From assembly GCA_937900875.1 (NCBI GenBank), contig CALCGD010000265.1:1-32608 (forward strand): DNA of 32,608 nt, read 5' to 3'. The notes beneath the pieces were generated by a model that had not been told where the DNA came from, ran no database searches, and saw nothing but the letters and a program-made list of their open reading frames with translations. This DNA is from an uncultured Flavobacteriales bacterium. GTDB taxonomy: Bacteria > Bacteroidota > Bacteroidia > UBA10329. Below, in pieces: positions 2,737 to 31,532 of the stretch; the stretch's first letter is position 1; each line of letters starts with the position of its first letter. Both the position numbers and the translations under genes were made by a program.

Positions 2737-3373
2737 TTTGAACTCAGAATTGGCAGCTAATGTAGCTAATGAATTGCTACGCATTAAGGCAGTAAAACTG
2801 CAACCCAACAATCCATTTACTTGGGCTTCTGGCTGGAAATCTCCTATATACTGTGATAATCGAAAAACACTTTCATACCCAAATGTGAGGAAGTTGATTG
2901 CTAAAGGGTTAGCGAAAGGAGTTCGTGAGAAATTTGCGGATGCTGATGTTGTTGCTGGTGTTGCCACGGGTGCCATTGCTGTTGGTTTGATGGTTGCAGA
3001 AGAGCTTGGATTGCCATTCATATATGTCCGTCCAAAACCAAAAGAGCATGGTTTGGGAAATCAGATTGAGGGCTACCTGCCCGAAAACAGTAAGATTGTG
3101 GTAATAGAGGACCTTATCTCAACTGGAGGCAGTAGTTTGAAAGCTGTAGACGCTCTTCGCGAAACTAACTCTACTGTTTTAGGTATGATGGCAATATTCA
3201 CCTACGGGTTTGCCAATGCTGATGAAAATTTTGAGCAGGCTGAATGCAAGATTTACACACTGTCCAATTATTCGGAATTAGTCAAACTTGCAGTAGAATC
3301 AGGGTATGTTTCTGAATCTGATTTGGCACAATTAAATGAGTGGCGAAAATCGCCATCAACCTGGAAAGCTTAA
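2729..3373 (+). CDS. pyrE: Orotate phosphoribosyltransferase
   Basis: PyrE joins orotate to PRPP to make orotidine 5'-phosphate in de novo pyrimidine synthesis (cytoplasm). The 214-residue length is normal. FTWASGWKSPIYCDNR is the characteristic N-terminal substrate-binding block; the YVRPKPKEHG segment supplies catalytic-loop basic residues, and IVVIEDLISTGGSS is the PRPP-binding loop. The start at 2729 fits the usual spacing to the FTWASG block. The gene is head-to-head with the Nudix gene, start codons overlapping by 8 bp, and tail-to-tail with birA with a 4-bp TTAA overlap, so both ends share bases with neighbours on the other strand. Confidence 0.97.
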   Translation: MDILNSELAANVANELLRIKAVKLQPNNPFTWASGWKSPIYCDNRKTLSYPNVRKLIAKGLAKGVREKFADADVVAGVATGAIAVGLMVAEELGLPFIYVRPKPKEHGLGNQIEGYLPENSKIVVIEDLISTGGSSLKAVDALRETNSTVLGMMAIFTYGFANADENFEQAECKIYTLSNYSELVKLAVESGYVSESDLAQLNEWRKSPSTWKA

Positions 3374-15231: not shown

Positions 15232-15258
15232 CGAAGTTATATTTCTATTGAAAATCAA
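15232..15258 (-). promoter_or_regulatory. Candidate promoter of icd
   Basis: Read leftward, TTG (15258-15256) and TAACTTCG (15239-15232) are 16 bases apart; the -7 box differs from TAnnTTTG at one base. The transcript would have a ~20-base leader. The -33 element lies inside the end of the regulator gene. Confidence 0.35.
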
Positions 15259-15985
15259 ACATCGGACTAAAGGAATGGTTGTACGCAGACTGATTAAACT
15301 CATATAATCTAGCAGGTTTGTGTGCCACTCCCTGCTGCTTTTCGTCAAGTGCCTTTAAGAAATCCATACCCGTTATTTTTCGTCTGAAATTTCTCTTGTC
15401 AATCTCAAAGCCCATGACGGTTTCGTACAGATTCTGTAATTGTCCCAACGTAAATTTCTCAGGAAGGAGTTCAAATCCAACAGGCTCCGTCCGCATTTTA
15501 AGTTTTAACGCTTCCATTCCGTTTTGAAGAATGAGATTATGGTCGAATGCCAATTCTGGGACTATGTCAATGCTCATCCATTCGGCTTTGCGTGCGAATG
15601 AATTAGCGGCTGGCTTGAAATTTTCAGGCTTTATTAGTGAGAAGTATCCGACCGTAACAACCCTTGCTTCTGGGTCCTTTCTCACACTTCTCAACCATTC
15701 CAAATCATTTTCGCGTTTAACGCGTGATGGGTCGCCAAAAGCTGCAAACTGACTTAAAAACAGATTGTCAAGTGCTGTAAGTTCTTTTAAGATGCGTTTA
15801 GCAGCTTCATCTAAATTCTCGTCATTTCTAATAAGGTCTCCAGGTAGCTGATAGTTTTTCCCATCTGTGTTGTCCGGGTTTTCTCGTTCAATTAAAAGCA
15901 CTTTTAACCCCGATAAATCGAATCCAAAAACCACACAGTCTACAGATACATTTGGGTTTAGACTTAATGATTGATTTTCGGACAT
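15245..15985 (-). CDS. Nudix-related winged-helix transcriptional regulator (NrtR-like), probable regulator of the starch locus
   Basis: The 246-residue protein has a Nudix-fold domain (~1-155) and a C-terminal winged-helix domain. The helix wording FTLGQLQNLYETVMG followed by DKRNFRRKI is typical of NrtR-type regulators, which include sugar regulators such as AraR in Bacteroides. The Nudix box is decayed: in PGDLIRNDENLDEAAKRILK the catalytic RE becomes RI, and two of the three key glutamates of REUxEE are lost, so it should sense a ligand rather than hydrolyse one. The ATG at 15985 has AGAAGAG upstream. It is divergent from the sugar kinase, with a 7-bp-arm palindrome (16019-16039) between them. 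The ligand is unknown; a maltose- or glucose-derived sugar is my guess from context. Confidence 0.85.
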   Translation of the reverse strand: MSENQSLSLNPNVSVDCVVFGFDLSGLKVLLIERENPDNTDGKNYQLPGDLIRNDENLDEAAKRILKELTALDNLFLSQFAAFGDPSRVKRENDLEWLRSVRKDPEARVVTVGYFSLIKPENFKPAANSFARKAEWMSIDIVPELAFDHNLILQNGMEALKLKMRTEPVGFELLPEKFTLGQLQNLYETVMGFEIDKRNFRRKITGMDFLKALDEKQQGVAHKPARLYEFNQSAYNHSFSPMFDFQ

Positions 15986-16018: not shown

Positions 16019-16039
16019 TTAGTGTCAAATTAACACTAA
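16019..16039. promoter_or_regulatory. Palindromic operator between the regulator and the sugar kinase
   Basis: Arms TTAGTGT and ACACTAA are perfect inverted repeats separated by seven bases (CAAATTA). The site lies 33 bases from the regulator ATG and 42 from the kinase ATG, in a divergent promoter region. A near copy (17 of 21 bases the same) precedes susC at 23100. Binding by the Nudix-type regulator is inferred from position. Confidence 0.75.
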
Positions 16040-16081: not shown

Positions 16082-16936
16082 ATGATACTTATTGCAGATA
16101 GCGGAAGCACCAAATGCGACTGGAAATTAATGGAAGGCCAAACTGAGGTTGGAGCCGTAAGTACCATGGGATTCAATCCGTTTTTTCATGGAGAATCCAT
16201 CATCAGCGCAACACTTAAAGCGCAACGGTTACTTACTGAAAATGCCGATCAGATTACTGATGTTTTTATCTACAGTGCTGGTTGTTCAAGTCCAGAATTA
16301 AATAAGGTAGTAGAAAAGGCCTTGCGAACGGTTTTTACCAAAGCAAATATTCTGGTAGACCACGATGTGCTCGGTGCGGCTTTGGCGGCTTGCCAAGGGG
16401 AAGAAGGAGTGGCTTGTATATTAGGTACAGGTTCTAATTCGTGCTACTATAATGGAGAAACGGTTTATGAAGAAATCCCATCGATAGCATACATTTTAGG
16501 TGATGAAGGCAGTGGAAGTTGGTACGGTAAACAAGTACTTAGAGACTATTTGTACAAGTTAGAAATGCCTGAAGGTCTAAGACAGAAACTGGTAGATCAA
16601 GGACATACAAAAGACTCAATTCTTGACAATATTTACATGCAAGAACATGCTAACGTTTATATCGCATCCTTCATGAAAACCATCTCAGAGTTCAGAGATA
16701 CCGACTATGTTAAAGACATGGTGCATGAAGGAATGCGAGCCTTTTTAGTGCGACATGTTTGCTGTTTTGAAAAACATAAAGAAGTGCCAGCCAATTTTGT
16801 TGGTTCAATTGCATATTACTTTCAGGATATTCTAAAGGAAGAAGCCGAGAAATTGGGCATTACAATAGGTTCGGTAATCAAAAAGCCGATTGATGGTTTA
16901 GTAGAGTATCATCTAAAGAACCCAGTAAAAGGATGA
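16082..16936 (+). CDS. BadF/NAGK-type sugar kinase (annotated family: N-acetylglucosamine kinase), possible glucokinase
   Basis: A 284-residue ASKHA-fold kinase. MILIADSGSTKCDWKLME is phosphate motif 1, ILVDHDVLGAALAAC carries the second strand with the catalytic Asp region, and CILGTGSNS is phosphate motif 2, followed by AYILGDEGSGSWYGK. Relatives in Bacteroidota are usually labelled N-acetylglucosamine kinase or BadF/BadG ATPase. Here it is the first gene of an operon with an alpha-glucosidase (ATGA overlap) and amylases, and there is no GlcNAc gene nearby. I therefore suspect it phosphorylates glucose released from maltodextrin. The ATG at 16082 has AGAAGG upstream at about six bases. The assignment to family is sure; the substrate is inferred. 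Confidence 0.85.
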   Translation: MILIADSGSTKCDWKLMEGQTEVGAVSTMGFNPFFHGESIISATLKAQRLLTENADQITDVFIYSAGCSSPELNKVVEKALRTVFTKANILVDHDVLGAALAACQGEEGVACILGTGSNSCYYNGETVYEEIPSIAYILGDEGSGSWYGKQVLRDYLYKLEMPEGLRQKLVDQGHTKDSILDNIYMQEHANVYIASFMKTISEFRDTDYVKDMVHEGMRAFLVRHVCCFEKHKEVPANFVGSIAYYFQDILKEEAEKLGITIGSVIKKPIDGLVEYHLKNPVKG

Positions 16937-19353
16937 AACAATTGTTCCAATCGCTTGGCGCGGTAATCGCTTTTAAAGAGACTGAAAACGGTGTTTTGTT
17001 GAGCACCGATGATGCAGATGTTCGAGTCACGATTTATTCTTCTTCTGTAGTGCGGGTTTTTATTGATAAGACCGAAAATGACGGTTCAGAATTACCATAT
17101 GCAGTAGTCGAAAAGCCTCAGAAAGTTGAATTTGATGTCAAGGAAACTGAAGACGTCATTTTTATAAAGACTTCCAAGTTGAAAGTTATGATCTCGCGGA
17201 AGCCTCTTCGGATTTCATTTACCGACTTAGAAGGAAAATTTTTGAACGAAGATGATTGTTCGTTCGGAACCGGTTGGATGGGTGACACGGTAGCCTCTTA
17301 TAAAGCATTAAAAGAAGGGGAAAAGTTCATTGGTTTAGGTGAGAAAACCGGGCCGTTGAATAGAGCAGGAAACGCCTACACACATTGGAATACAGATCAT
17401 TTTGCTTATCCATCTGATGCCGACCCTCTTTATTTGAGCACGCCTTTTTATATGGGAATTCATGCCGATGGACACTATGGGATATTCCTGAATAATTCTC
17501 ATCGTTCGGTAATCAATTTTGGAGCTAGTAATGACCGTTTTTCGTCTATTCAAGCCGAAGGCGGACCGATGGATTATTTCTTCTTCCATAACGATACCGT
17601 GGCCGAAATGGTCTCGGATTATTCATGGTTAACTGGCCGAATTCCCTTACCGCCAAAGTGGGCGCTAGGTTTTCAGCAATGCCGATACAGCTACTACCCA
17701 GATACTGAAGTAGCAAGTGTGGCACGAACTTTTCGAGAAAAGAAAATTCCTGCTGATGTCATCTATCTCGATATCCATTATATGCAGGATTTCAAGGTGT
17801 TTACGTTTGATGAAGAGCGTTTTCCAAACCCGAAGAAGCTTACCGCTGAGTTGGAAAAGCAGGGCTTTAAAACCGTGGTTATAGTTGACCCAGGGGTTAA
17901 GCGAGAGAAAGGCTACGAACCTTGTGAAGATGGGATTGAGAAAGACGTTTTCGTAAAATATCCTGATGGCGAATTGCATTCCGCTCAGGTTTGGCCAGGC
18001 TGGAGTTACTTTCCAGATTTTACAAAAGTGGAAACACGAGATTGGTGGGCTGACAAGATGAAGTTTTACACGGATAACGGTATTCGTGGTTTTTGGAATG
18101 ACATGAACGAACCAGCAAGTTGGGGTCAAATGACGCCAGATTTGATTGAGTTCGATTGGGAAGGAGAACCAACTTCACATCGCGAAGCGAGAAATGTTTA
18201 CGGTGGGTTAATGTCTCGTGCAACCAAAGAAGGCGCAGATAAACACTTAGATAACAAGCGTCCATTGATGCTTACTCGTGCTGGGTTCTCTGGAGTTCAG
18301 CGCTATGCTGCTGTTTGGACTGGCGATAATATTGCTTCGGATGAGCACATGATGGCTGGGGTACGCCTTATCAATAGCATGGGTCTCACAGGAATTCCTT
18401 TTGCTGGATATGATGTAGGTGGATTCGTTGATGAAGCTTCTCCAAACCTATTTGCTCGTTGGATTTCGATTGGGTCGTTTAGCCCGTTTTTCCGAGCGCA
18501 TAGCATGATTGGAACGCGAAATGCAGAACCTTGGACTTTTGGAGAAACTACCGAAGCCATTGCTCGGAACTACATCAATTTGCGCTATAAGTTGATGCCA
18601 ACAATTTACACAGCCATGCATCGGGCAACTATAGACGGAATGCCGTTAGTGAGGTCCTTGGCTTTGTTGCATCCAACGGATGAAAAGGTTTACGAAGGAG
18701 CGTATCAAAATCAATACATGTTTGGCGAATCCTTATTGATTTGCCCTGTTGAAAGCACCAAAGACTTAGTTCGTGTTTACTTGCCAGAAGGAGATTGGTA
18801 CGACTTGTTTACGGATAAACATTACCAAGGAAATCACGAAGTAGTTGTTGATTGCCCAGTTGAGAAATTGCCTGTTTTCGTAAAGCGCGGTGCGCCCATT
18901 ATCACGCAAAGTTTGGTTCAGTCAACTGCGGAAAAGCATGATGGAGTGATGAATCTTCATGTTTGGTTTAGTGCCGAAGGAACCGCTTGTATTTATGAAG
19001 ATGATGGTGAAACTTACGACCATCAAAAAGGAAAATGGAGCTCTCGAGAAATCAAATATGATTGTCCGAATAACACCATTTCTTTTGGTGCTCAAGATGG
19101 AGAATACACATCTGATTTTGATAAGGTGAAAGTTATTTGGCATGGATTCCACGATAGAAAAGTGAAGACGATATCTGTTCTTGGAAAAGAGCTTAAAGCA
19201 AAACCTGAAGAGCACAAATGGGTTGAAACTTTACCAAACTTCGACCCTCTTGGCGAAACAGTTAAGGATTACATCTGCAATGTGTTTACGACTGAATTTG
19301 ACAACACAGACAAAGCTTTTGAACTCACTTGGGAAAGCGAACTCAACGACTAA
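16933..19353 (+). CDS. GH31 alpha-glucosidase, cytoplasmic
   Basis: The 806-residue protein hydrolyses terminal alpha-1,4-linked (and perhaps other) glucose residues. It has an N-terminal beta-sandwich (~1-230) and a (beta/alpha)8 barrel with the nucleophile motif GFWNDMNEPASWG (Asp390) and the acid/base region WTGDN (Asp465), plus GADVGGF-like AGYDVGGF. C-terminal beta domains follow (~600 on). No signal peptide or lipobox is present, so the enzyme should stay in the cytoplasm and act on imported maltose or maltodextrin. Its ATG overlaps the kinase stop by ATGA, and the next gene follows after 8 bp. Fit to the locus is strong; exact linkage preference is not readable. Confidence 0.95.
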   Translation: MKQLFQSLGAVIAFKETENGVLLSTDDADVRVTIYSSSVVRVFIDKTENDGSELPYAVVEKPQKVEFDVKETEDVIFIKTSKLKVMISRKPLRISFTDLEGKFLNEDDCSFGTGWMGDTVASYKALKEGEKFIGLGEKTGPLNRAGNAYTHWNTDHFAYPSDADPLYLSTPFYMGIHADGHYGIFLNNSHRSVINFGASNDRFSSIQAEGGPMDYFFFHNDTVAEMVSDYSWLTGRIPLPPKWALGFQQCRYSYYPDTEVASVARTFREKKIPADVIYLDIHYMQDFKVFTFDEERFPNPKKLTAELEKQGFKTVVIVDPGVKREKGYEPCEDGIEKDVFVKYPDGELHSAQVWPGWSYFPDFTKVETRDWWADKMKFYTDNGIRGFWNDMNEPASWGQMTPDLIEFDWEGEPTSHREARNVYGGLMSRATKEGADKHLDNKRPLMLTRAGFSGVQRYAAVWTGDNIASDEHMMAGVRLINSMGLTGIPFAGYDVGGFVDEASPNLFARWISIGSFSPFFRAHSMIGTRNAEPWTFGETTEAIARNYINLRYKLMPTIYTAMHRATIDGMPLVRSLALLHPTDEKVYEGAYQNQYMFGESLLICPVESTKDLVRVYLPEGDWYDLFTDKHYQGNHEVVVDCPVEKLPVFVKRGAPIITQSLVQSTAEKHDGVMNLHVWFSAEGTACIYEDDGETYDHQKGKWSSREIKYDCPNNTISFGAQDGEYTSDFDKVKVIWHGFHDRKVKTISVLGKELKAKPEEHKWVETLPNFDPLGETVKDYICNVFTTEFDNTDKAFELTWESELND

Positions 19354-19361
19354 TTTTTACC

Positions 19362-21710
19362 ATGATTAATCGAATTACCATTCTATGTTTAGCGGTTTTG
19401 CTATTCTCTTGCTCGGATGAAAAGAGAGCTGAAGTAAAACACTCAACCCTCATTATTGGACTCGCCTCTACCATCAGTTTACCAGTTGAGGGTCCCGCTG
19501 AAATCAATCTTGGCGATTACGTTTTGGAACTAGAATTGCTTGACAGCGTCTCGGTCAAAGCGCCATTTTCTGTTACCAGAAATGAAGGTATGCTGGAACT
19601 TTCATGGACTGGCGAAATTCCACCAATTGCTGAACTACAACTTTGGGCGGATGGAATTCCTTCGTCCATCATTCTATTGAAATCAAAAAAGCAAGCGGTG
19701 GAACTGACTTATTCAGGAGTAGCTGCATCTGTTCAAGTGGCTGGAGAATTTACAAGTTGGAGCACGAAAGGACAAGATTTTGTGAGATATGGAGAGGTTT
19801 GGAGCAAGACTATTTATCTCGACCCAGGCTTGTATCAATACCAACTTGTTATTGATGATGAATGGATTATGGATCCCGCAAACCCCGATAGCGTTGATAA
19901 TAATGTAGGTGGATTCAATTCGCTTTTGAATGTTGGAGGATTGGAGCAGGAGGGAAGTCCGCTTCTTCTTACTAGAAGTTCTGATAATGCCAATGTTCGT
20001 TTTGAATTCAGGAATGAGCCAACCGAGATTTTTGCCGTTTGGGAAAATCATCGCTTGCCAGTCGAAATGGTTGGTTTACAGGGAAGCGAGCTAACGATTG
20101 GTTTGCCAATTTTAGCTCAGCAAGCACCTAATTCTACCCTTCGGGTTTGGTCTTATAATGAGCATGGTGTTTCTAATGATGTTTATGTCCCGCTTCAGAA
20201 CGGAAAACCAATTCAAAAGCATGAGAATGTAAAGCGCACAGAATGGCATTCTGCTCAGATGTATTTCATGATGGTAGACCGGTTTATCAATGGAGATACA
20301 TTGAATGATGAACCTGTTGATGATCCTGAAATACATTACAAAGCGAATTATCAGGGCGGAGATTTAGCAGGAATACACCAAACACTAGACAGAGGGTATT
20401 TCGAGCAACTAAGTATCAACACAGTTTGGGTTTCGCCCATTACACAGAATCCTAAAGTTGGATTTGTCGAGTTTCCTGCGCCTCACAGGAAGTTCTCAGG
20501 CTATCACGGTTATTGGCCAACCCTAAATACGGTTGTGGATTATCGGTTGGGAACATCAGACGAGCTCAGAAGCTTGATTGATGATGTGCATGGAAAGGAC
20601 ATGAACATCATTCTCGATTTCGTTTCAAATCACGTGCACGAAGATCATCCCGTTGTAATAGATCATCCGGAATGGCGAACGCCTCTAGATTTACCTGACG
20701 GCAGAAAGAACATCAGAATTTGGGAAGATGAACGGCTTACTACTTGGTTTGATACGTTCTTGCCAAGCTTAGATCATTCCATTCCTGAAGTGACTGAAAT
20801 GCTTTCTGATACCGCCCTTTTTTGGGTAAAAGATTACGGCTTTGATGGTTTTAGACATGATGCCGCAAAACACATTCCGCAAGATTTCTGGAGAACATTG
20901 ACCAAGAAAATTAAGCGTGAAGTAGTTCTTGAACAGGGAAAACCTGTTTTCCAATTGGGCGAAACGTTTGGAAGTCGTGAGTTGATTGGGTCTTATATCG
21001 GTTCAGGAATGATGGACGGAAAGTTTGACTTCAATCTATACTTCGATGCTCGGAATGTGTTCGCGCTTGATTCAGAAGATTTTGACAGACTCGGAACCTC
21101 GCTTCAATCTACCCTAAGTTATTATGGTCATCATCACTTAATGGGAAACATTACTGGTAACCACGATTTGCCACGTTTCATCACGTACGCTAGTGGTGCA
21201 CTGAAATTTGGGGAAGACGATAAAGAAGCAGGTTGGAATAGAGACATCAAAGTGGAAGATCCAATAGGTTATCAGAAACTTGAACAACTCATCGCCTTCA
21301 TGTGGACAATCCCAGGAGTTCCTGTGATGTATTACGGAGATGAGTTTGGAATGCCTGGTGCTGGCGATCCTGATAATAGACGCTTAATGCGCTTTGAATT
21401 ATCCGCTGACGAAACCGAAACTTTAAAAACTACAAAAGCAATTTCTAAACTTAGAAAAGAGCATTTGGCACTTCAGTTTGGAGATATATATGACATCTGT
21501 GCAGATGGAAAAATGATGCATTACCGAAGGAAATACTTTGATGATGAAGTGATTGTAATTTTTAATAAAGACAGCGCTCAACACTCACTTCCAATGCATG
21601 ATGAAAGTGGCGAATGGACAACGGAATTCGGAAGTAAAATGAAATATGAAGACGGAAATCTAGAAGTGCAGATTTCAGCTTATGGCTTCGAGATATTGAC
21701 CAAAAAGTAA
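19362..21710 (+). CDS. GH13 alpha-amylase-type lipoprotein with a CBM48-like domain
   Basis: A 782-residue lipoprotein. The signal ends in LLFSC (Cys17), followed by SDEK, an acidic stretch that in Bacteroidota often marks lipoproteins exported to the cell surface. Residues ~112-191 look like a glycogen-binding CBM48 domain (VAGEFTSWS, then GLYQYQLVIDDEW). The GH13 barrel starts near ~300; its triad is complete: nucleophile Asp500 in GFRHDAAKH, Glu534 in LGETFG and Asp602 in GNHDLPR. It should cut starch or pullulan-type glucans outside the cell. I chose ATG 19362 because the lipoprotein signal starts there; the frame is open 11 codons further up. It is co-transcribed with the GH31 enzyme. 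Confidence 0.93.
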   Translation: MINRITILCLAVLLFSCSDEKRAEVKHSTLIIGLASTISLPVEGPAEINLGDYVLELELLDSVSVKAPFSVTRNEGMLELSWTGEIPPIAELQLWADGIPSSIILLKSKKQAVELTYSGVAASVQVAGEFTSWSTKGQDFVRYGEVWSKTIYLDPGLYQYQLVIDDEWIMDPANPDSVDNNVGGFNSLLNVGGLEQEGSPLLLTRSSDNANVRFEFRNEPTEIFAVWENHRLPVEMVGLQGSELTIGLPILAQQAPNSTLRVWSYNEHGVSNDVYVPLQNGKPIQKHENVKRTEWHSAQMYFMMVDRFINGDTLNDEPVDDPEIHYKANYQGGDLAGIHQTLDRGYFEQLSINTVWVSPITQNPKVGFVEFPAPHRKFSGYHGYWPTLNTVVDYRLGTSDELRSLIDDVHGKDMNIILDFVSNHVHEDHPVVIDHPEWRTPLDLPDGRKNIRIWEDERLTTWFDTFLPSLDHSIPEVTEMLSDTALFWVKDYGFDGFRHDAAKHIPQDFWRTLTKKIKREVVLEQGKPVFQLGETFGSRELIGSYIGSGMMDGKFDFNLYFDARNVFALDSEDFDRLGTSLQSTLSYYGHHHLMGNITGNHDLPRFITYASGALKFGEDDKEAGWNRDIKVEDPIGYQKLEQLIAFMWTIPGVPVMYYGDEFGMPGAGDPDNRRLMRFELSADETETLKTTKAISKLRKEHLALQFGDIYDICADGKMMHYRRKYFDDEVIVIFNKDSAQHSLPMHDESGEWTTEFGSKMKYEDGNLEVQISAYGFEILTKK

Positions 21711-21718
21711 ATCAACGT

Positions 21719-23086
21719 ATGAAAAATCTATTCTCATTTGCAGTAATTCTAGCTCTGTTTACGGCCTGCGAATCTCCGAAACCACCCGTTGAGGAAACGG
21801 CTCCTACACCTGAACCACATTGGTCGGCAAACAGCACCATCTACGAAGTAAACCTTCGCCAGATGACAGAAGAAGGAACGTTTAAAGCCTTCCAAAATCA
21901 GCACTTAGATCGCTTGGCTGATATGGGTATAGAGATTCTATGGTTCATGCCGATTTATCCGATTGGAGAGGAGAACAGAAAAGGAACTTTAGGTTCTTAC
22001 TATGCAGTAAAGGATTACCAAGATGTAAGCTCAGAGCATGGGTCGATGGAAGACTTCAAAGCACTGGTGGATGCCGCGCATGGAAAAGGGATGAAAGTCA
22101 TTTTGGATTGGGTTGCCAATCACACCGCCTGGGACAATGCATGGGTAACCGAACATCCAGAATGGTACACAACCGATTCTACAGGGAAAATGGTTCCGCC
22201 AGTTGCTGATTGGGCTGATGTGGTTGATTTGAATTATGACAATGCTGATATGCGAGAAGCGATGATTCAAAGTCTTGAATTCTGGCTTCGCGAAGCAGAT
22301 ATTGACGGTTACCGTTGTGATGTGGCCGAAATGGTTCCACTTGATTTTTGGGTAGATGCAAGAGCACGAATCGATTCAGTTAAGCCTAATTTCTTCCTAG
22401 CCGAAGGAGAAGCCACAGAACTTCATCAAGCGTTTGATATGACGTACGCTTGGAGTTTTCATCACTTGATGAATGAAGTGTCAAGAGGCGAAAAAGGCGC
22501 TTCAGATGTAAAAGCATATTGGGAAGAGCAATCAACCAAATACAAATCTGACGACTATCGGATGCAGTTCATTACAAACCACGATGAGAACTCATGGAAT
22601 GGAACCGCAATTGAGAGAATGGGCGATTACAGAAAGGCATTTGCAGTAATGAGTTTTACTGTTCCTGGAATGCCGTTAATCTATAGCGGACAGGAAGCAG
22701 ATATGAACAAACGTTTGCTGTTTTTTGAGAAGGATTTGATTGATTGGCGTAACGATTCATTAGCTGATTTCTACAAGAATTTGGTTTCCATAAAAAAGGA
22801 CCATGACGTGCTGTTTAATGGTGCTAAAGGCGCACCAATCAAGTTCCTAAATGCAGGAAATGAACGTGCAGTAGTTTATTCTAGAGCTAATGAATTTTCA
22901 GAACTTTTGGTGATGCTCAATTTCTCTAATGAAGCTGTTTCGATAAATCTTGAGGGCGATGAATTCACAGGGTTTTATTCAAGTCATATCGACAAGGGTT
23001 CAATCGATGCGCACGGAAGTCTGCCTTGGGATTTACCACCGCATGGTTATCAGATTTTTGAACGGGCAATTGATGAGAAATATTGA
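21719..23086 (+). CDS. GH13 alpha-amylase-type lipoprotein, compact
   Basis: At 455 residues this is little more than a catalytic domain. A lipoprotein signal ends in LFTAC (Cys17) followed by ESPK and a Pro/Glu/Thr-rich linker. The catalytic residues are all present: Asp201 in DGYRCDVAEM, Glu229 in FLAEGEA and Asp289 in TNHDENSW. A short C-terminal beta domain ends at YQIFERA. It should act at the outer membrane or cell surface on maltodextrins or starch. It begins 8 bp after the larger GH13 gene and is the last gene of the first operon; 13 bp after its stop comes the second operator. Precise specificity is unknown. Confidence 0.92.
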   Translation: MKNLFSFAVILALFTACESPKPPVEETAPTPEPHWSANSTIYEVNLRQMTEEGTFKAFQNQHLDRLADMGIEILWFMPIYPIGEENRKGTLGSYYAVKDYQDVSSEHGSMEDFKALVDAAHGKGMKVILDWVANHTAWDNAWVTEHPEWYTTDSTGKMVPPVADWADVVDLNYDNADMREAMIQSLEFWLREADIDGYRCDVAEMVPLDFWVDARARIDSVKPNFFLAEGEATELHQAFDMTYAWSFHHLMNEVSRGEKGASDVKAYWEEQSTKYKSDDYRMQFITNHDENSWNGTAIERMGDYRKAFAVMSFTVPGMPLIYSGQEADMNKRLLFFEKDLIDWRNDSLADFYKNLVSIKKDHDVLFNGAKGAPIKFLNAGNERAVVYSRANEFSELLVMLNFSNEAVSINLEGDEFTGFYSSHIDKGSIDAHGSLPWDLPPHGYQIFERAIDEKY

Positions 23087-23099
23087 CCATAATCAGCAC

Positions 23100-23120
23100 T
23101 TAGTGTCATATTGACACTTT
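23100..23120. promoter_or_regulatory. Palindromic operator in front of susC
   Basis: AGTGTCA and TGACACT are perfect 7-base inverted arms separated by TAT, within a 21-base block that matches the 16019 site at 17 of 21 positions. It lies 47 bases before the susC ATG and just upstream of a -7-like box. A hairpin with following TTTCTCTT is an alternative reading (weak terminator), but the shared sequence with the divergent promoter favours an operator. Confidence 0.75.
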
Positions 23121-23167: not shown

Positions 23168-26100
23168 ATGTCTAAACATCTACTAACTCTCTTATTCGTT
23201 GCCCTTAGTTCATGGGTTTTTGCCCAAACAGGAACAATAAAAGGTATTGTAACTGGAGATGATGGCCTTTCCATCATCGGGGGTACCGTCCTTCTACAGG
23301 GAACCACAATCGGAGCTTCAACCGATTTTGATGGAAACTATGAGTTGAAAGGAGTTCCTGTTGGAGAACAAACCATAGTTTATTCATTTATCGGTCTTAA
23401 GACTCAGAAGAACAAAATCACGGTAAAAGAAGGTGAAACGACTTCGTTTGATGTCAAACTTTCAGAGGACGTAATGCTGCTTGATCAGGTGGTTGTGGTA
23501 GGATACGGAACAACTCAAAAGCGCGATATAACAGGTTCAATTTCAACCGTAAAAGCAGAAGCAATTGCACAATCGTCTCAACCAAGTGTGGATGAAGCTT
23601 TGCAAGGTCAGGCGGCTGGCGTAAGCATCATTTCTCAGAACGGTATTTCTGGTTCTGCGGTTAAGATTAATGTTCGAGGTACGAATTCGATAGCTGCTGG
23701 TTCTCAGCCACTTATCGTTGTTGATGGAATTCCAATTACTACTGGAAACTTCGACCCAGGAAATCTTGGTTCCAGCTCAAATGCGTTGTCTGATTTGAAC
23801 CCAAACGACATTGAAAGCATTGAGGTTTTGAAGGATGCTGCAGCCACAGCTATTTATGGTTCACGAGGAGCAAATGGTGTTGTGATGATTACCACCAAGC
23901 GCGGAAAAGCTGGGAAATCTAGCCTTAATATCGGTTATAGCTACGGTATCATGAATGAGACGAATCGTGTCAAATTCTTGGATGCTTCAGAGCATTTAGC
24001 GCTACGTAATCGTGCGAGAACTGATGCTGGTTTAGCTCCTGAAACTGGAACAACAGGGGTAGGTGGTGGTCTCACAAGAGCAGAGGCTGATTCGCTGGCT
24101 GCAAAAGGAGGAACGGATTGGATTGATGAAATGCTACGAACGGGTGGAGTTCATCAGCTGGAACTTTCCGCGAGCGGAGGTTCTGAGAAAGTGCGCTACT
24201 ATTTGGGCGGAGCGTACAGAAGTGAAGATGGCTTTTTGAAAGGCAACAATTATGATAGGGTAAATGCCCGTTTGAATTTGGATGCCGATGCTTCCAAAAT
24301 CCTTCGTGTTGGTGGAAATCTTGCCATTACTTATACGAGTATTGATAGAGTTAGAACAGGCGATGCAGGTGGATTAGGAACGGCTCAACAAATCCTTCCT
24401 TACGTCCCCATTTATGATGCCGATGGCGAGTTCAATAATAACATCAGCAATCCCGTTCGAGATTTGGCTTTGCAGTCATTTAACACTGAAATTATCCGAA
24501 GCATCAATTCCATTTACACGGATTTGACATTGCACAAGAATCTTAAATTCCACACCGATTTTGGTATCGATTTTATGAATCAGCAGGAAGATGAATTCAA
24601 TTTCCGAAACGTGAACCAAACTGGAAGTACCTCTTCTGCATGGGATAGAACAACACGTGTCATTAACTGGAACTTGAACAATTTCTTGACTTACGAGAAA
24701 GACTGGGACTCAAAGCACTATTTCAAAATCATGGTTGGGCAATCTGCGCAGCGAGTAAAAGCGGAAGGATTTGGACTTTTTGGCTATGGATTTCCGAACG
24801 ATTATCTGACTAGCCCTTCTGATGCGCCAGCCGATAATCAGAATGGTTATAGCTACGAAACGGGCAACGGATTGTTGTCATTCTTCTCTCGAATCAACTA
24901 CAAATTGAAGAATCGCTATCTGCTTGGAATCAGCATGCGTGGCGATGCAAGTTCGCGTTTTGGGCCAGACAATAAATGGGGATTTTTCCCAGCTTTTTCT
25001 GCTGGTTGGATAATCTCTGATGAGAAATTTATGAGCGGTTCTAAAGCTGTTCCTTACTTGAAATTGAGCGCCAGTTTCGGTTATACAGGAAACGATGCAA
25101 TTCCTGATTTTGCCTATTGGTCACTGTATTCAGCAGGTTTCGATTATGCCGATAGTTCGGGCGTTGCGCCAATTCAACTGGACAATCCCAATTTGAAATG
25201 GGAGCGTTCGCAACAGCTTGACGTGAATGTTGATTTCGCCTTTTTCGATAGTAAGTTGTTTGGAAACATCACTTATTACCGAAAAACGAGTTCAGATTTG
25301 CTTCTATTCATGTCCTTGCCGAGTTCGTCAGGTTATGATGGCGTTTGGCAGAACATTGGTCAGCTAGAAAATTGGGGAATGGAATTTAGCCTTACGAGCC
25401 GAAATATCAACCGTAAATTCAAATGGGAAACCAACCTGAATTTGGCTTTCAATCGCAACAAGGTTTTGGATGCGGCAAGCCTTCCGCCAGATGCATTTGA
25501 AAGCGGACAACCAGGAGAAGGACGCGTGATTGAAGGCTATCCAGTTGGACAAGCGTTCTTGGTGGAGTTTGCTGGAGTTCAAGCACAAGATGGGCAAATT
25601 GGAGCTTACAATTTGGATGGTTCGGCCATGCTTGATGGGGGAGGAAGTCAAGTGATGTATAATGTAAATGGAGGCACGGAATTGTTCTACGATAAGAACG
25701 GTAACCTCATGACATTCGCCAATCCAACCGGAGGATTGTTTTACGAGCATCATAGAAAAGCAATGGGCAGTCCGTTGCCGATATTCTACGGAGGCATTAC
25801 AAACACACTTTCATACGCAGGGGTTGAGTTGAATTTCATGTTCAGCTTTGCTTACGGAAACACACTTTATGATGATGCCGCAAAAACTCAGATTGGAAGC
25901 TGGCAAAGCATCGCGCAGCGAGAAGAAATTTTAGACGCTTGGTCGCCTGAAAATCCGAACACTGATGTGCCTGGTTTGAATGGATATGTACCAGTTAATT
26001 CCTCTAGATTCTTGTACGATGCTTCTTATTTAAGGCTAAGAAGCTTGACTTTGGCCTACAATTTCCCAAAGAAAACCTTGTCCAAAATCAAGCTACAAAA

Positions 26101-26281
26101 GCTTCGGATTTACGTGAAGGGCGGAAACTTATGGACCTTGACAGCTTTCAAAGGTTGGGACCCTGAAGTGCTAAGAAATGTGGACCCGAATTCGCAAGCT
26201 GGTAACGTATCGTTTGCAGGACCATACTTGGGAACGCCACAAGCTAGAACCATTTCATTCGGAATTCAAATTGGACTATAA
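23168..26281 (+). CDS. susC: SusC-type TonB-dependent outer-membrane transporter
   Basis: The 1037-residue protein is the outer-membrane channel of a glycan uptake pair. A signal peptide (to ~20, SWVFAQ) is followed by a carboxypeptidase-regulatory-like domain (~22-105), a TonB-box region around VVVVGYGTTQKRDITGSIS, a plug domain (~115-225, with LIVVDGIPI and IYGSRGANGVVMITTKRG), then a long beta-barrel ending in the aromatic-rich C-terminal strand RTISFGIQIGL. It should take maltooligosaccharides held by the SusD partner, using TonB energy. Identity as a starch/maltodextrin transporter rests on the flanking GH13/GH31 genes. The start ATG lies 47 bases after the operator. Confidence 0.95.
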   Translation: MSKHLLTLLFVALSSWVFAQTGTIKGIVTGDDGLSIIGGTVLLQGTTIGASTDFDGNYELKGVPVGEQTIVYSFIGLKTQKNKITVKEGETTSFDVKLSEDVMLLDQVVVVGYGTTQKRDITGSISTVKAEAIAQSSQPSVDEALQGQAAGVSIISQNGISGSAVKINVRGTNSIAAGSQPLIVVDGIPITTGNFDPGNLGSSSNALSDLNPNDIESIEVLKDAAATAIYGSRGANGVVMITTKRGKAGKSSLNIGYSYGIMNETNRVKFLDASEHLALRNRARTDAGLAPETGTTGVGGGLTRAEADSLAAKGGTDWIDEMLRTGGVHQLELSASGGSEKVRYYLGGAYRSEDGFLKGNNYDRVNARLNLDADASKILRVGGNLAITYTSIDRVRTGDAGGLGTAQQILPYVPIYDADGEFNNNISNPVRDLALQSFNTEIIRSINSIYTDLTLHKNLKFHTDFGIDFMNQQEDEFNFRNVNQTGSTSSAWDRTTRVINWNLNNFLTYEKDWDSKHYFKIMVGQSAQRVKAEGFGLFGYGFPNDYLTSPSDAPADNQNGYSYETGNGLLSFFSRINYKLKNRYLLGISMRGDASSRFGPDNKWGFFPAFSAGWIISDEKFMSGSKAVPYLKLSASFGYTGNDAIPDFAYWSLYSAGFDYADSSGVAPIQLDNPNLKWERSQQLDVNVDFAFFDSKLFGNITYYRKTSSDLLLFMSLPSSSGYDGVWQNIGQLENWGMEFSLTSRNINRKFKWETNLNLAFNRNKVLDAASLPPDAFESGQPGEGRVIEGYPVGQAFLVEFAGVQAQDGQIGAYNLDGSAMLDGGGSQVMYNVNGGTELFYDKNGNLMTFANPTGGLFYEHHRKAMGSPLPIFYGGITNTLSYAGVELNFMFSFAYGNTLYDDAAKTQIGSWQSIAQREEILDAWSPENPNTDVPGLNGYVPVNSSRFLYDASYLRLRSLTLAYNFPKKTLSKIKLQKLRIYVKGGNLWTLTAFKGWDPEVLRNVDPNSQAGNVSFAGPYLGTPQARTISFGIQIGL

Positions 26282-26282
26282 G

Positions 26283-27707
26283 ATGGAAAGGATGAAGAAA
26301 TTATCACTCATATTATCGTTGGCCATTTTGTTCGGATCGTGCGAGAAACTACTCGTTATTGACCCAGTTACAGACATTCCAGCCGATCAAGCAATAAATA
26401 CCGTTCAGGATTTAGAGAATCTAGCTAATTCCATGTACAATGGTTTGCAAGGAGGTTCGCTTTACGGAGGCAATTTTCAACTCTATGCAGACCTTATGGC
26501 CGAGGATACTCGTGTAGACGAATCAAGGTTGTCCCCATTCGGAACTCTTGAGATTTATCAACGGGCTACAACTATCCAAATCGGCTCTTTGCGGAGTACC
26601 TGGAAAGAAGCGTACAAGGTGATTAATCGGGCGAATAATATCATTCGTGTTGTGGATGAAAACCTTCTTTCTGGCGATGATTTTGAGCACAGAAAAGGAG
26701 TTTTAAAGGCAGAAGCCTTATTTATAAGAGCATTGTGCCATTTTGAACTCTGCCGTTTTTGGGCGCAACCTTATGACGTGGATAACCAAGGAGGAAATGG
26801 CCAAGCAGGTGTGCCGTATAGATTGGAGCCAACTTTATCGTTTACACAGGATTTGGCTATTGCCCGCTCAACGGTTGAAGACGTTTACACCAACGCTTTA
26901 ATTGATTTAAATGAAGCAGAAACGCTTTTTGCCGCTGCAGGCGCACGGAGGTCAACTCATCGCGCAGCAGGCATGGCTACAAATGCACTCAAGGCAAGAA
27001 TTCTTTTTTCAAAAGGGGATTATACAAATGCATCGGCTGCAGCTACAGAAGTAATTGCAAGCAACCTTTATAGTCTTTATCCAAGTAATTCTGATGATGT
27101 AGCGCTGCTTGTTCCGTTTCAATCAACGGGTTATGGAGCGGCAACCGCGTCTATTTTTCAACTGGCTTTTACCACTTATGATAATGGGTTGAATGAGTCG
27201 TATTCTCAACTGAATAACCTACCCGTTTTTCAGTATTCTGCTGCAGATTTAGTAACTAGTTATGCTCCAGGAGACCAAAGAAAAACGAAATGGTATTTGC
27301 AAAATCCAATTAATCTGAATGGTAGAATAACTAAGTATGATCGCCCTGGAGACGTGTTTTACAACGTTCCAGTTTTTAGATTGGCGGAAATGCATCTTAT
27401 TCGAGCTGAAGCAAACATGAGTCCTGGTGGAAGTGGAAATACTACGGAAGCATTGGAAAGCTACAATGCCATTAGAGAAAGAGCTTTCGAAACCAATTTC
27501 ATTCCTGAAACAGGAACGAATCAGTTATTGGAGAAAATAAGATTGGAAAGAAGATGGGAACTCTGTTTTGAAAACGATAGGTACCACAATCTAAGACGAT
27601 TGAAGCTTCCTGTGCGCGATGGAGTTTCGTATAATGATGCATCTTTACTATTCAAAATACCGCAAGAAGAAATTGCTGGAAATCCTTCTATAGAACAAAA
27701 CCCTTAA
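26283..27707 (+). CDS. susD: SusD/RagB-type outer-membrane glycan-binding lipoprotein
   Basis: A lipoprotein of ~475 residues whose signal ends in ILFGSC (Cys about 17-20 from the start), followed by EKLLVIDPVTDIPADQAI, the typical SusD N-terminus. The helical TPR-like scaffold is visible, and the C-terminal RagB/SusD signature is present: RLAEMHLIRAEANM, then KIRLERRWELCFENDRYHNLRR and LLFKIPQEEIAGNP. The ATG at 26283 comes right after the susC stop; ATG 26292 (MKKLSLIL) is equally possible. The open frame extends back into susC, which is not real coding. It forms the lid of the SusCD pair. Confidence 0.94.
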   Translation: MERMKKLSLILSLAILFGSCEKLLVIDPVTDIPADQAINTVQDLENLANSMYNGLQGGSLYGGNFQLYADLMAEDTRVDESRLSPFGTLEIYQRATTIQIGSLRSTWKEAYKVINRANNIIRVVDENLLSGDDFEHRKGVLKAEALFIRALCHFELCRFWAQPYDVDNQGGNGQAGVPYRLEPTLSFTQDLAIARSTVEDVYTNALIDLNEAETLFAAAGARRSTHRAAGMATNALKARILFSKGDYTNASAAATEVIASNLYSLYPSNSDDVALLVPFQSTGYGAATASIFQLAFTTYDNGLNESYSQLNNLPVFQYSAADLVTSYAPGDQRKTKWYLQNPINLNGRITKYDRPGDVFYNVPVFRLAEMHLIRAEANMSPGGSGNTTEALESYNAIRERAFETNFIPETGTNQLLEKIRLERRWELCFENDRYHNLRRLKLPVRDGVSYNDASLLFKIPQEEIAGNPSIEQNP

Positions 27708-27717: not shown

Positions 27718-28746
27718 ATGAAAACACTTTACACTCTAGGTCTTCTCCTAATTACGGGAGTAGCTTTTTCTCAAGTTCCAACCAATTTTGGCTCAAATGC
27801 GGAAGATGGAATCCTTTATCAAACGTACAATCTAATTGATCACGGTAGCGTGAGTTCTGTCCGGTTTCAAGCACAAAATGCCATCGGAGAAGGTGATGGT
27901 ACATGGGAATTTTACACTGGCGATTACATGAATAATTGGCGACCATATACGGCTGATGACACACTGAGTAGTTTTGATATGATTATCGACCCTTCTGCCG
28001 AATCAGCTAGTGCTCGTTACAATTCTGGTTATGGAGGTGAAACAGGTAAACTACAAGCTATTCAGGCTGGATACTACTACACTGCCATTATCGGAAACAA
28101 TGTCACAGCCGACAATTTCATGTCAATTATTGAGACTGATTTTGCCCCTGTGGCAATTGATACGGTTTACAACTCACCTACAAATCCAACTGAGACAGAT
28201 GATATTGTAATAACGGTTGAACTAGACGGAGCAACTACTCTTAGTCCTGGAGAGCATGTGTTCATTCGAGCTGCTGCAAGTGCCGACTTTACCATTGCAC
28301 CGGCTTTCTTAGAGGTAACCAACTTTTCCAATGGTGTGGGCACGGTTACGATTCCTGCAGGATCAATTTCAGCGGGAATTGCAGCGCATTACTACGCCTT
28401 AGTGACTGAGGAGGCTTCTCCAGTTCATGAATCCATTGACTATTTCACACTATTCTTCGGTAATAATGGTGGAGATAATTATGAGTTTACCGTTTCTCCT
28501 GTTACGGGAATAGAAGATCCTGTTGCTGAATTTGGCATTACCAACACGAATGGAACAATCCGCATCTCAAATTCAGCGCAGCTTAATAGGGTTGAGTTAA
28601 TTGCAGTGGACGGTAAAGTCGTTTCGGCTAAATCGGTTAACGGAAGTGAGATTAACATTAGCACAAACGGATTGGCTAAGGGAGTTTATGTGTTGAATCT
28701 CATCGGTGCCGACCATAAAACAAGCACAAAACTGTTTGTTGATTAA
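27718..28746 (+). CDS. T9SS-sorted secreted protein in the SusE position
   Basis: A 342-residue protein with a signal peptide of type I (LLLITGVAFSQ, no lipobox cysteine). The middle has two beta-rich regions (~25-145 and ~155-250); these are plausibly carbohydrate-binding, but I do not recognise the domain. The last ~75 residues (~265-342) look like a type IX secretion type-A sorting tail: GTIRISN, then VELIAVDGKVVSAKS and GLAKGVYVLNLIG ending in KLFVD. So it is probably secreted or anchored through T9SS instead of being a SusE-like lipoprotein. It is 10 bases after susD. A strong terminator follows its stop. The role (starch binding at the surface) is inferred from position only. Confidence 0.75.
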   Translation: MKTLYTLGLLLITGVAFSQVPTNFGSNAEDGILYQTYNLIDHGSVSSVRFQAQNAIGEGDGTWEFYTGDYMNNWRPYTADDTLSSFDMIIDPSAESASARYNSGYGGETGKLQAIQAGYYYTAIIGNNVTADNFMSIIETDFAPVAIDTVYNSPTNPTETDDIVITVELDGATTLSPGEHVFIRAAASADFTIAPAFLEVTNFSNGVGTVTIPAGSISAGIAAHYYALVTEEASPVHESIDYFTLFFGNNGGDNYEFTVSPVTGIEDPVAEFGITNTNGTIRISNSAQLNRVELIAVDGKVVSAKSVNGSEINISTNGLAKGVYVLNLIGADHKTSTKLFVD

Positions 28747-28764: not shown

Positions 28765-28801
28765 AAGGCCGTCTAACAACTGTTGGACGGCCTTTATTTT
28801 A
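28765..28801 (+). terminator. Strong hairpin terminator inside the starch operon
   Basis: AAGGCCGTC (28765-28773) pairs perfectly with GACGGCCTT (28786-28794), extended inward by AACA/TGTT, and is followed by a T-rich stretch (cctttatttta). It ends only a few bases before the GH13 start at 28807, so there is no room for a new promoter after it. Confidence 0.85.
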
Positions 28802-28806: not shown

Positions 28807-30645
28807 ATGAAACGACTTATTTATCTTCTCTTTTCTCTTTTATCCACTGTTGCGGTTGCCCAAGAATCGCCCGATTTGAAATTCTTTCCGCCCAATTGGT
28901 GGACTGGTATGCCAGAAGAGAATTTTCAATTAATGATTCATGGATTGAGAGGCGACTGGGACGTAGAGTTGGTAGATGATTTGGAATTAACCATTACAGA
29001 CCAGCATACGGTAGATAACCCTAATTATTTGTTCCTAGACATCACCATTCCGAAGGGGTATAAGGGTGATGGAATCCCGTTACATTTCTCAGACGGAAAC
29101 GCTTCATTTAAGCTTATATATCCTTTGCTAAAGCGAGACGAATTGCCAAATATTCATCGTGGAATAAACTCCGCAGACCTCATTTATCTCATTTTTCCAG
29201 ATCGATTTGCCAACGGAGATGAAGCTAATGATGTGAATTTTGGCTTGACCGATACGCGTGTTCTACGAGACTCGCTCAAAACCAGACACGGAGGCGACAT
29301 TAAAGGAATTCGAGATAATCTCTATCACTTTCGCGATTTAGGAGCTACAGCACTTTGGATTAACCCGTTGCTAACTAACGATCAGCCCTGGGAGAGTTAC
29401 CACGGTTATGCCGCCACAGATCATTACCAAATCGACCCAAGATTCGGCACATTAGAGGATTACAAAGCATTGGTGAATGAATGCCATCAGTCGGGAATAA
29501 AAGTGATTATTGATATCGTTTTTAACCACGTTGGGGGTAATCATCTTCTAATTAAAGACCTACCGTCTAAAGACTGGATTCATATCTGGGATGAGTTTCA
29601 GCGCACCAGCTACCGAGCACCAACTCTAATGGATCCTTACGCATCCGAATCGGATAAGAAAATAATGACCGATGGTTGGTTTGATTACCACATGCCAGAT
29701 TTAAATCAGAAGAACGAATTATTGGCAAACTTCCTTATTCAGAATTCTATTTGGTGGATTGAGATGACAGGAATTGACGCCTATAGAATTGACACCTATG
29801 CGTATTCAGATGCGGAGTTTATGGCTAAATGGGCCAAGACGATTAAAAAGTATTATCCCAAGTTCAATTTCTTTGGCGAAACGTGGGTTCACGGAACACC
29901 TATTCAGGCTCATTTTACCGAGAATAATAAGATGAATGGCGAATTCAATACCGAACTACCAGCAGTCACAGATTTTCAGATGTATTATGCCATAAACGAT
30001 GCGATTTCTAAACCTCAGGGCTGGACTGATGGAATGGCTAAACTGTACTACACCCTAGCCAAAGATTTCGTTTATGAAGATCCAAACAGGAACATTTTGT
30101 TCTTAGATAATCATGACTTGGGTCGCTATTACTCCATGGTTGGAGAGGATTTTGAAAAATGGAAAATGGGAATGAGTTGGTTAATGACCACCCGAGGAAT
30201 TCCGATGATTTATTATGGTACTGAGATACTCATGACAGGATTTACAGACCCAGACGCCAAGGTTAGAGCAGATTATCCTGGGGGCTGGAAATCTGATTCG
30301 GTAAATAAATTTACCAAAGAGGGTAGAACCGAATTGGAAAATGAAGCATTTGATTTCATTCAAACCCTAGCTCGTTTCAGAAAGAAAAGCAAAGCCATTA
30401 CCAAAGGACAAACAATGCAATTTGTACCAGTTGACGGTGTTTATGTGTATTTCCGCTACACAGATTCCGAAACAGTTATGGTTATCATGAATTCGGCAGA
30501 GAAAGAAATGGCGCTAGATATGGACCGATATGCTGAAAGAATTACCTCCGCTACAACTGCCAAAAATGTTGTCACAGGCTCTCAAGTATCGCTCGAAAAT
30601 TTAAAAATAGGTTCTAAAAGTTCGTTAATTCTTCAATGGAACTAA
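28807..30645 (+). CDS. susA: SusA-like periplasmic GH13 enzyme (neopullulanase/cyclomaltodextrinase type)
   Basis: The 612-residue protein has a cleavable signal peptide (LLSTVAVAQ, residues ~1-19) and no lipobox, so it is periplasmic. Residues ~24-115 form the N-terminal domain of the cyclomaltodextrinase type (FFPPNWWTGM block), followed by the GH13 barrel and a C-terminal beta domain from ~530. The triad is present: Asp329 in DAYRIDTYAY, Glu358 in FGETWV and Asp437 in DNHDLGR. It probably cuts imported maltooligosaccharides, as SusA does in B. thetaiotaomicron; the symbol is by analogy. No ribosome site is seen between the terminator's T-run and the ATG. Confidence 0.92.
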   Translation: MKRLIYLLFSLLSTVAVAQESPDLKFFPPNWWTGMPEENFQLMIHGLRGDWDVELVDDLELTITDQHTVDNPNYLFLDITIPKGYKGDGIPLHFSDGNASFKLIYPLLKRDELPNIHRGINSADLIYLIFPDRFANGDEANDVNFGLTDTRVLRDSLKTRHGGDIKGIRDNLYHFRDLGATALWINPLLTNDQPWESYHGYAATDHYQIDPRFGTLEDYKALVNECHQSGIKVIIDIVFNHVGGNHLLIKDLPSKDWIHIWDEFQRTSYRAPTLMDPYASESDKKIMTDGWFDYHMPDLNQKNELLANFLIQNSIWWIEMTGIDAYRIDTYAYSDAEFMAKWAKTIKKYYPKFNFFGETWVHGTPIQAHFTENNKMNGEFNTELPAVTDFQMYYAINDAISKPQGWTDGMAKLYYTLAKDFVYEDPNRNILFLDNHDLGRYYSMVGEDFEKWKMGMSWLMTTRGIPMIYYGTEILMTGFTDPDAKVRADYPGGWKSDSVNKFTKEGRTELENEAFDFIQTLARFRKKSKAITKGQTMQFVPVDGVYVYFRYTDSETVMVIMNSAEKEMALDMDRYAERITSATTAKNVVTGSQVSLENLKIGSKSSLILQWN

Positions 30646-30692
30646 CCCGACTTGGGAATGTCTTCTTATCTTTTCAGTTCAAAATTTATCGC

Positions 30693-31532
30693 ATGAGAAC
30701 TTTTACTCGATTATTCGCGCTTGCTGGTTTGGTACTATTTATTGGCGGAAATGCCATTGCGCAGAACCATAGCCAAAATCAGGAACAGCTTAAAAAGTAT
30801 GAGTCTGATGAGTTATACGCGTCAGACTGCAAGCACGATGTAAGCGGTAAATGGATTGGGACTGAAATTCAGTATGACGAGACAGGAAGTTTCATTAAGG
30901 TGAAATTTGACATTGTATTCGAGTTTGTTCAAGACGGAAATAAGGTCACAGGCACTTCTTACATCAAAGACAAATTGGCCAACGATATAGGCTACATGAA
31001 TATTAGAGGTTACGTTATTGGAGATAAACTTCATTTCGAAGAATACGAGCTTACAGGTCAACAATGGGAAACGCCTAATAGAGTTTGGTGCTTTAGAACT
31101 GGTGAACTCGATTTAACCCAAATAAGACGCAAAATGCAGCTGTCTGGCGATTATGATGCTTACGCGGCTTACGATTACCGACCATGTAGAGATTACTGCC
31201 ACACGGTTGTTCAAAAAGACACCAAAGATTCTGATGGACCAGAAGTGGCTGAATTCAAATTTGCTGAAGAAAAAGAGAATCTAATTTCTGTTGCTCCAAG
31301 TCCATTTAGAGACCAGACTACACTCTCCTACACCTTAGATAAGGATGCAAAAGTTCAGTTAGATGTATTTGATCTTTCTGGAAGAAAAGTGGTTGAGCTA
31401 ATAAATGGTAATCAGACTTCAGGAAAGTATTCTCAGGTTTTTGAAGCAGCGGGAAATCCTGTGGGAAGCTACATTGTTCGCTTGTTTGTGGATGATAAAC
31501 TTTACACCAAGCAGGTGGTAATTATGAGGTAA
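30693..31532 (+). CDS. T9SS-sorted secreted protein with a cysteine-containing N-terminal domain
   Basis: A 279-residue protein. The open frame starts earlier, but MRTFTRLFALAGLVLFIGGN followed by AIAQ is a clear signal peptide, so I place the start at ATG 30693. After a short linker, residues ~45-165 form a beta-rich domain (HDVSGKWIGTEIQYDETG, then GDKLHFEEYELTG) with four or more cysteines, the last near RPCRDYCH; disulfides are likely. The C-terminal ~75 residues are a T9SS sorting tail (VAPSPFRDQTTLSYTL, LDVFDLSGRKVVELI, GSYIVRLF). No known function. It lies 47 bases after the GH13 gene; whether it belongs to the starch operon is uncertain. Confidence 0.75.
   Translation: MRTFTRLFALAGLVLFIGGNAIAQNHSQNQEQLKKYESDELYASDCKHDVSGKWIGTEIQYDETGSFIKVKFDIVFEFVQDGNKVTGTSYIKDKLANDIGYMNIRGYVIGDKLHFEEYELTGQQWETPNRVWCFRTGELDLTQIRRKMQLSGDYDAYAAYDYRPCRDYCHTVVQKDTKDSDGPEVAEFKFAEEKENLISVAPSPFRDQTTLSYTLDKDAKVQLDVFDLSGRKVVELINGNQTSGKYSQVFEAAGNPVGSYIVRLFVDDKLYTKQVVIMR

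Follow-up and report, generated by a model that had tools for sequence, protein, structure and literature searches.

Introduction

In the Sus model, surface binding proteins are delivered as lipoproteins, and SusE is arranged as an N-terminal lipid anchor followed by an Ig domain and then by X25 modules. SusE and SusF carry the X25 module in tandem copies (PMC9112005), and SusE of F. johnsoniae (Fjoh_0405) belongs to a SusCDE complex as a surface lipoprotein (PMC12611786). T9SS-exported enzymes are also known from SusCD loci: SusG of Mariniflexile is a T9SS enzyme, with a CTD, in a SusCD starch locus (PMC11278836), and the ChiA chitinase of the F. johnsoniae chitin PUL is a T9SS cargo that is fully secreted and soluble (PMC5127042).

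We analysed a window of 32,608 nucleotides, the full length of a contig from an uncultured Flavobacteriales bacterium, in which the gene directly downstream of susD (the slot gene, or X) encodes a predicted T9SS-sorted protein. As with SusG and ChiA, SusCD and T9SS export occur together in one locus, but those two proteins are enzymes, whereas the slot protein has no catalytic domain and lies in the slot of a binding protein. The SGBP-B-like CHU_1279 of C. hutchinsonii is likewise a non-catalytic glycan-binding protein of two beta domains, located at the outer membrane and encoded in a PUL-type cluster; however, it binds cellulose rather than alpha-glucan, its cluster has no SusD, and no T9SS tail is described in the accessible part of the source (PMC12016534). 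Thus, T9SS-sorted enzymes in SusCD starch loci are known, and what appears to be new is a T9SS-sorted binding protein in the SusE slot, for which we found no description in the open literature.

The slot gene lies in an alpha-glucan locus

The locus encodes SusC, SusD, three GH13 proteins and one GH31 protein (Table 1), with a BadF-type kinase also upstream, before the GH31 gene, and is therefore an alpha-glucan PUL. The slot gene starts 10 nt past the susD stop codon, which is the position of SusE and SusF. The first-pass annotation had placed the gene in the SusE slot, and this placement holds: the gene directly follows susD, which in turn follows a TIGR04056 SusC, and the order is kept in two other genomes of the genus, G008 and G004.

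Table 1. Coordinates of features in the window
Feature	Position	Strand	Basis or remarks
NrtR/AraR-type Nudix regulator	15245..15985	-	PF21906 97.2 bits, PF19368 50.6, NUDIX
Predicted operator, divergent promoter of alpha-glucan catabolic operon	16019..16037	.	same palindrome as upstream of susC; also in G004 (L047:196)
GH31 alpha-glucosidase	16933..19353	+	PF01055 393.7 bits
GH13 lipoprotein with CBM48/AMPK1-type module, lipobox LFSC	19362..21710	+	PF00128, PF16561; start inferred
GH13 lipoprotein, lipobox FTAC	21719..23086	+	PF00128 121.5 bits
Palindromic predicted operator TTAGTGTCATATTGACACT, upstream of susC	23100..23118	.	kept in G008, G004, G002
susC (SusC/RagA TonB-dependent transporter)	23168..26281	+	TIGR04056 800.9 bits
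susD lipoprotein, lipobox LFGSC	26292..27707	+	PF07980 + PF14322; start taken from orthologs
Slot gene, 342-aa predicted T9SS-sorted protein in SusE slot	27718..28746	+	ORF and orthologs in G008, G004
Type I signal peptide, residues 1-18	27718..27771	+	sequence, without lipobox
Domain 1, residues 19-146, X25/CBM69-like starch-binding-module fold	27772..28155	+	AlphaFold model, VIA-align
Domain 2, residues 147-262, Ig/FnIII-like, probable stalk	28156..28503	+	model, generic hits
T9SS type A sorting domain, residues 277-341	28546..28740	+	TIGR04183
Intrinsic terminator closing susC-susD-X	28765..28794	+	13-bp stem, 7 G-C, T-rich tail
Cyclomaltodextrinase-type GH13, type I signal peptide, past terminator	28807..30645	+	PF00128, PF09087, PF10438

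Because a strong hairpin with a T-rich tail lies right after the slot gene, the transcription unit is predicted to be susC-susD-X. A hairpin of different sequence is found at the same place in G008 and G004. The cyclomaltodextrinase-type GH13 gene falls outside this unit, and is absent at that place in G008.

A palindrome connects this unit to the rest of the locus. The pattern TTAGTGTCA-NNN-TRACACT occurs twice in the window, with both strands matching at each occurrence, where 0.05 matches would be expected by chance. One site precedes susC, and the second is situated between the Nudix regulator gene and the BadF-GH31-GH13-GH13 operon; the palindrome core is absent from the other 185 loci examined. 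The palindrome is probably the operator of an alpha-glucan regulon, and it is probable that the Nudix protein binds it. Since the palindrome lies before both susC and the BadF-GH31-GH13-GH13 operon, the slot gene is linked to the alpha-glucan system through its predicted regulation in addition to its position.

Two further observations concern the ends of the window. At the end of the locus, a second T9SS-tailed protein of 298 aa (30636-31532, + strand; TIGR04183 35.2 bits) has a body without a Pfam match and is kept beside the PUL in G008 and G004. Near the other end, two long open reading frames, one Nudix-like (2116-3021, - strand) and one phosphoribosyltransferase-like (2729-3373, + strand), overlap on opposite strands, and one of their starts is probably called too far upstream.

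The slot protein has a signal peptide without lipobox and a T9SS sorting tail

The signal peptide of the slot protein, MKTLYTLGLLLITGVAFS|Q, has no lipobox, and there is no Cys in any of the 342 residues, so the protein cannot be a lipoprotein. Its tail scores 29.4 bits against TIGR04183 (cut-off 23) and 26.6 bits against Pfam Por_Secre_tail, just below the cut-off of 27. The orthologs in G008 and G004 pass both cut-offs (TIGR04183 26.3 and 32.7, Pfam 27.2 and 28.0). Furthermore, the genome encodes the SprA translocon (2070.8 bits) and the PorU sortase (1253.8 bits), and contains at least 150 TIGR04183 matches, compared with one SusD. By profile, the slot protein is therefore a T9SS type A cargo, with a Sec signal peptide lacking a lipobox, a sorting domain and the corresponding machinery in the genome. 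Both the type I signal peptide and the type IX sorting tail proposed in the first-pass annotation are thus borne out, and the delivery through the T9SS that it suggested is supported.

The tail is nonetheless divergent: it has no counterpart to the initial 8-11 positions of the sorting-domain model, the usual YPNP start is lacking, and the AlphaFold model of the tail has a pLDDT of only about 50-65. Together with the Pfam score below the cut-off, and with a next gene (GH13) that encodes a type I signal peptide, these features could suggest an ordinary Ig-like domain in place of a sorting tail, in a periplasmic protein that would help the downstream cyclomaltodextrinase-type GH13. We consider this very improbable. 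TIGR04183 is passed by all three orthologs, and a separate CTD profile gives them 22.6-30.5 bits, as opposed to at most 9.9 bits for every slot gene that is not of the T9SS type; on these two grounds we reject an ordinary Ig or other beta domain for the tail. The terminator also separates the slot gene from the GH13 gene, which G008 lacks at that place.

Domain 1 is predicted to have the fold of starch-binding X25/CBM69 modules

Sequence profiles have little to say about the region between signal peptide and tail. Residues 20-262 are without any Pfam match, and in none of 14 family members does domain 1 match a Pfam X25 or CBM family. Sequence searches do not link domain 1 to solved structures. 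The SusE and SusF_SusE families (PF14292 and PF16411) do not match the slot protein at E up to 1, and no matches to these two profiles were found across the genus. In hhalign comparisons, domain 1 has no detectable homology to 22 SusE/SusF modules (0.3%), nor to the X25 module of a protein from genome G056 that is discussed below.

Structure prediction was more informative. With relatives from other families included, AlphaFold2 produced a confident model of domains 1 and 2. Domain 2 has a pLDDT of about 85-90 over most of its length, and its fold neighbours are generic Ig/FnIII domains with Z of about 9. As Ig domains swamped the fold search with the whole model, we folded domain 1 alone (pLDDT 90.3, pTM 0.84) and searched with it separately. 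In the VIA-align comparison with the PDB, its best neighbour was 7rpy, X25-2 of Ruminococcus bromii Sca5 (Z 10.3, 111 residues, 2.9 A), which Foldseek alone also ranked first (probability 0.99, E 0.026). Next came the N-terminal region of the maltohexaose-producing alpha-amylase of K. pneumoniae (9us6, 9us3 and 9us4; Z 8.5-8.7), of which we take MalS to be a homologue, and the CBM69 domain AmyP-SBD (5x5s; Z 6.3). The N domain of E. coli MalS is predicted to be a CBM69 (PMC10223318). All five PDB rows above Z 4 are thus modules of proteins that bind or degrade alpha-glucans, and the next row is at 3.5 or less; SusF is absent from these comparison rows, which excludes nothing.

Since the five rows that stand out are all related to alpha-glucans, and X25 is the module of SusE and SusF, the slot after susD is predicted, on the basis of the model, to carry a SusE-type fold on a T9SS chassis. 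The first-pass annotation had called these domains unrecognised and beta-rich. This remains correct for sequence profiles, which are blank, but by structure domain 1 has an X25/CBM69-like fold, and it was the comparison with the PDB that led to these starch-binding modules. The predicted likeness to Sca5X25-2 (PMC9112005) and AmyP-SBD (PMC10223318) is one of fold: we found no sequence similarity to X25/CBM69 modules, and X25 is in tandem in Sca5 but single in the slot protein. The slot protein as a true SusE is ruled out, as it has no lipobox, no profile match and no hhalign homology. Lacking sequence homology to SusE/SusF, it is best regarded as a SusE analogue and not as SusE, and we do not claim family membership.

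In Sca5X25-2, the aromatic platform that binds alpha-glucan comprises W620 and W661, with N684 and N687, and its single X25 lobes bound no malto-oligosaccharides alone (PMC9112005). Candidate platform residues in domain 1, proposed from sequence conservation, are Y34, Y70, W74 and N102. The conserved aromatics Y34, W63, Y70, W74, Y77 and Y121 are, however, common to large adhesin-like proteins (see below), in which they are equally conserved, and so they may be structural.

Within the genus, the slot gene accompanies SusCD

The susD gene of the window is the only PF07980 match in its genome, so that its operon is the sole SusCD operon. The orthologs in G008 and G004 are full-length and 63 and 66% identical to the slot protein, and the slot gene is present in all three genus genomes, including that of the window, whose contigs cover the slot. 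Among these orthologs, domains 1 and 2 are best conserved (74-76% and 69-71%, compared with 36-54% for the tail). Three genomes that are 94-95% complete (G005, G006 and G007) have no match to the slot gene, and all three are without a SusD of the window type. In G002 and G003 the contig breaks off inside susD, and the completeness of G001 is 70%. Thus, wherever a genome of the genus allows a verdict, the slot gene and SusCD are either both present or both absent.

The two-domain front end is shared with large T9SS proteins

Scanning contigs with the single protein yielded nothing, whereas scanning with an alignment yielded 12 loci; a search of plasmids gave no match. Relatives in other families are mostly the N-terminal part of large proteins, several of which have confirmed T9SS tails. 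In six loci (L053, L054, L055, L057, L061 and L062), open frames of 1600-3600 aa begin with the X25-like and Ig-like front end, and the L053 and L055 giants have a confirmed type C sorting tail. Such giant proteins may be glycan-binding adhesins. In Flavobacterium sp. BFFFF1 (L058:9917-12801), a frame change separates domain 1 from domain 2 of the front end, reflecting either a pseudogene or a sequencing error.

These relatives raise the question of whether the slot protein is instead a small T9SS protein of general adhesin or matrix type that ended up in the SusCD operon, with the generic front end of giant proteins and no starch binding. In several families, T9SS-type proteins of 900-3900 aa open with this front end, mostly without alpha-glucan genes nearby, and, as noted above, the aromatics of the starch-locus proteins may be structural. 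Since most relatives of the module belong to large T9SS proteins away from SusCD, the module in the slot may also bind other glycans. On the other hand, every fold neighbour that rises above the rest is related to alpha-glucans, the operon position, terminator and operator are conserved, and the gene follows the presence of SusCD in the genus. Moreover, one relative does adjoin a T9SS amylase: in G129 (L037:3238-8981, also L051), a T9SS protein of 922 aa that starts with the two domains of the slot protein lies 23 nt past a T9SS-tailed GH13 with CBM48-like and DUF4961-like parts. Given this evidence, we regard an adhesin without starch binding as unlikely, and favour a role of the slot protein in binding alpha-glucan.

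Parallels in other SusCD loci

Outside the genus, we inspected the gene that follows susD at 46 loci: 8 belong to the nearest SusD relatives, another 19 are high-scoring SusD loci from as many genomes, and the remaining 19 come from 15 further genomes. Three slot neighbours run off the contig end, leaving their C-termini unreadable. Where a slot neighbour is present on the same strand, it is most often a lipoprotein. Next to the 8 nearest SusD relatives there is no candidate SusE-type gene, but a gene on the opposite strand or an unrelated one of cytoplasmic type.

A T9SS-tailed protein directly follows susD in one of the 46 loci, that of G056 (L167:11740-19501). The order there is a T9SS-tailed GH13 with a CBM48-like domain, SusC, SusD, and a protein of 247 aa (L167:11740-12483) that carries an X25 module between its signal peptide and a T9SS tail, the latter scoring 51.1 bits in Pfam. 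The pullulanase X25 profile recognises this module under the family cut-off (E 4e-4; 1e-3 with the whole protein), and by hhalign the module aligns with those of SusE/F (91%, E 1e-6). This protein shares with the slot protein its signal peptide, T9SS tail and location directly after susD and, given the predicted fold of domain 1, an X25-type module, but it belongs to another taxonomic family, has a module recognisable by sequence and no Ig domain that we could see, and is not an ortholog. In G102 (L168:9662-13429) and G066 (L174), small T9SS-tailed proteins of about 260 aa are encoded near, but not adjoining, single SusCD pairs with amylases. They carry other beta domains, with a DUF4961-like match in G066, and are possibly further non-lipidated starch-binding helpers. 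In each of G056, G102, G066 and G129, independently, T9SS-sorted proteins without catalytic function are thus associated with alpha-glucan enzymes.

These parallels could reflect a recurrent, convergent class of T9SS-sorted SusE analogues: in Bacteroidota that are rich in T9SS cargo and poor in SusCD, X25-type modules would have exchanged a lipid anchor for a T9SS tail at least twice, in the genus of the window and in G056, in the slot after susD. We propose this tentatively, as a possibility that falls somewhat short of being probable.

Discussion

Taken together, it is quite likely that the slot protein is exported by the T9SS and binds glycan at the surface, filling the role of SusE/SusF beside SusCD. 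Its similarities to these proteins are the position after susD, the predicted X25-like beta-sandwich, the Ig-like domain and a probable glycan-binding role next to SusCD. It differs in having no lipobox or Cys, a T9SS tail instead of the lipid anchor, a reversed domain order and a single module rather than two or three, and in its lack of detectable sequence homology. Starch binding is suggested by the modelled fold and by the locus, and location at the surface and cooperation with SusCD are what we infer from the arrangement as a whole. As a T9SS tail takes the place of the lipid anchor of SusE, this helper probably reaches the surface by a different export route. The idea that two delivery routes are mixed in one locus is therefore supported, with precedents among enzymes (PMC5127042, PMC11278836).

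In the mechanism that we envisage, the protein would cross the inner membrane by Sec with its type I signal peptide, fold in the periplasm, and then be exported through the T9SS translocon. The sortase would remove the C-terminal domain, and the mature protein would be joined to surface lipopolysaccharide, or released. The X25-like module would hold alpha-glucan near SusCD, with the Ig-like domain as a stalk that spaces it from the membrane. Read from the other end of the chain, the order of X25-like module, Ig domain and C-terminal anchor would mirror the geometry of SusE, with the binding module distal in both.

The release branch of this scheme leads to a different view, in which the protein is a diffusible capture factor for starch and is not attached to the cell. 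T9SS cargo can be released, for example the soluble ChiA (PMC5127042), and sequence alone cannot separate release from anchoring; but a diffusible binder without an enzyme would presumably compete with uptake, and the SusE slot and stalk-like domain suggest attachment. We therefore give release a modest chance, and lean towards a slot protein that stays attached beside SusCD.

The binding partner of the only SusCD of this genome is thus predicted to be delivered through the T9SS and anchored at the opposite end of its chain. If so, the accessory slot would owe its identity to function and position and not to the type of anchor, and a single operon would be able to couple the T9SS with SusCD. 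A further suggestion is that proteins of this kind are overlooked when SusE is sought by family profile or lipobox. The two-domain front end of many giant T9SS proteins of unknown function in Bacteroidota also gains a testable role. If the recurrent class is real, two surface-delivery machines supply one uptake complex.
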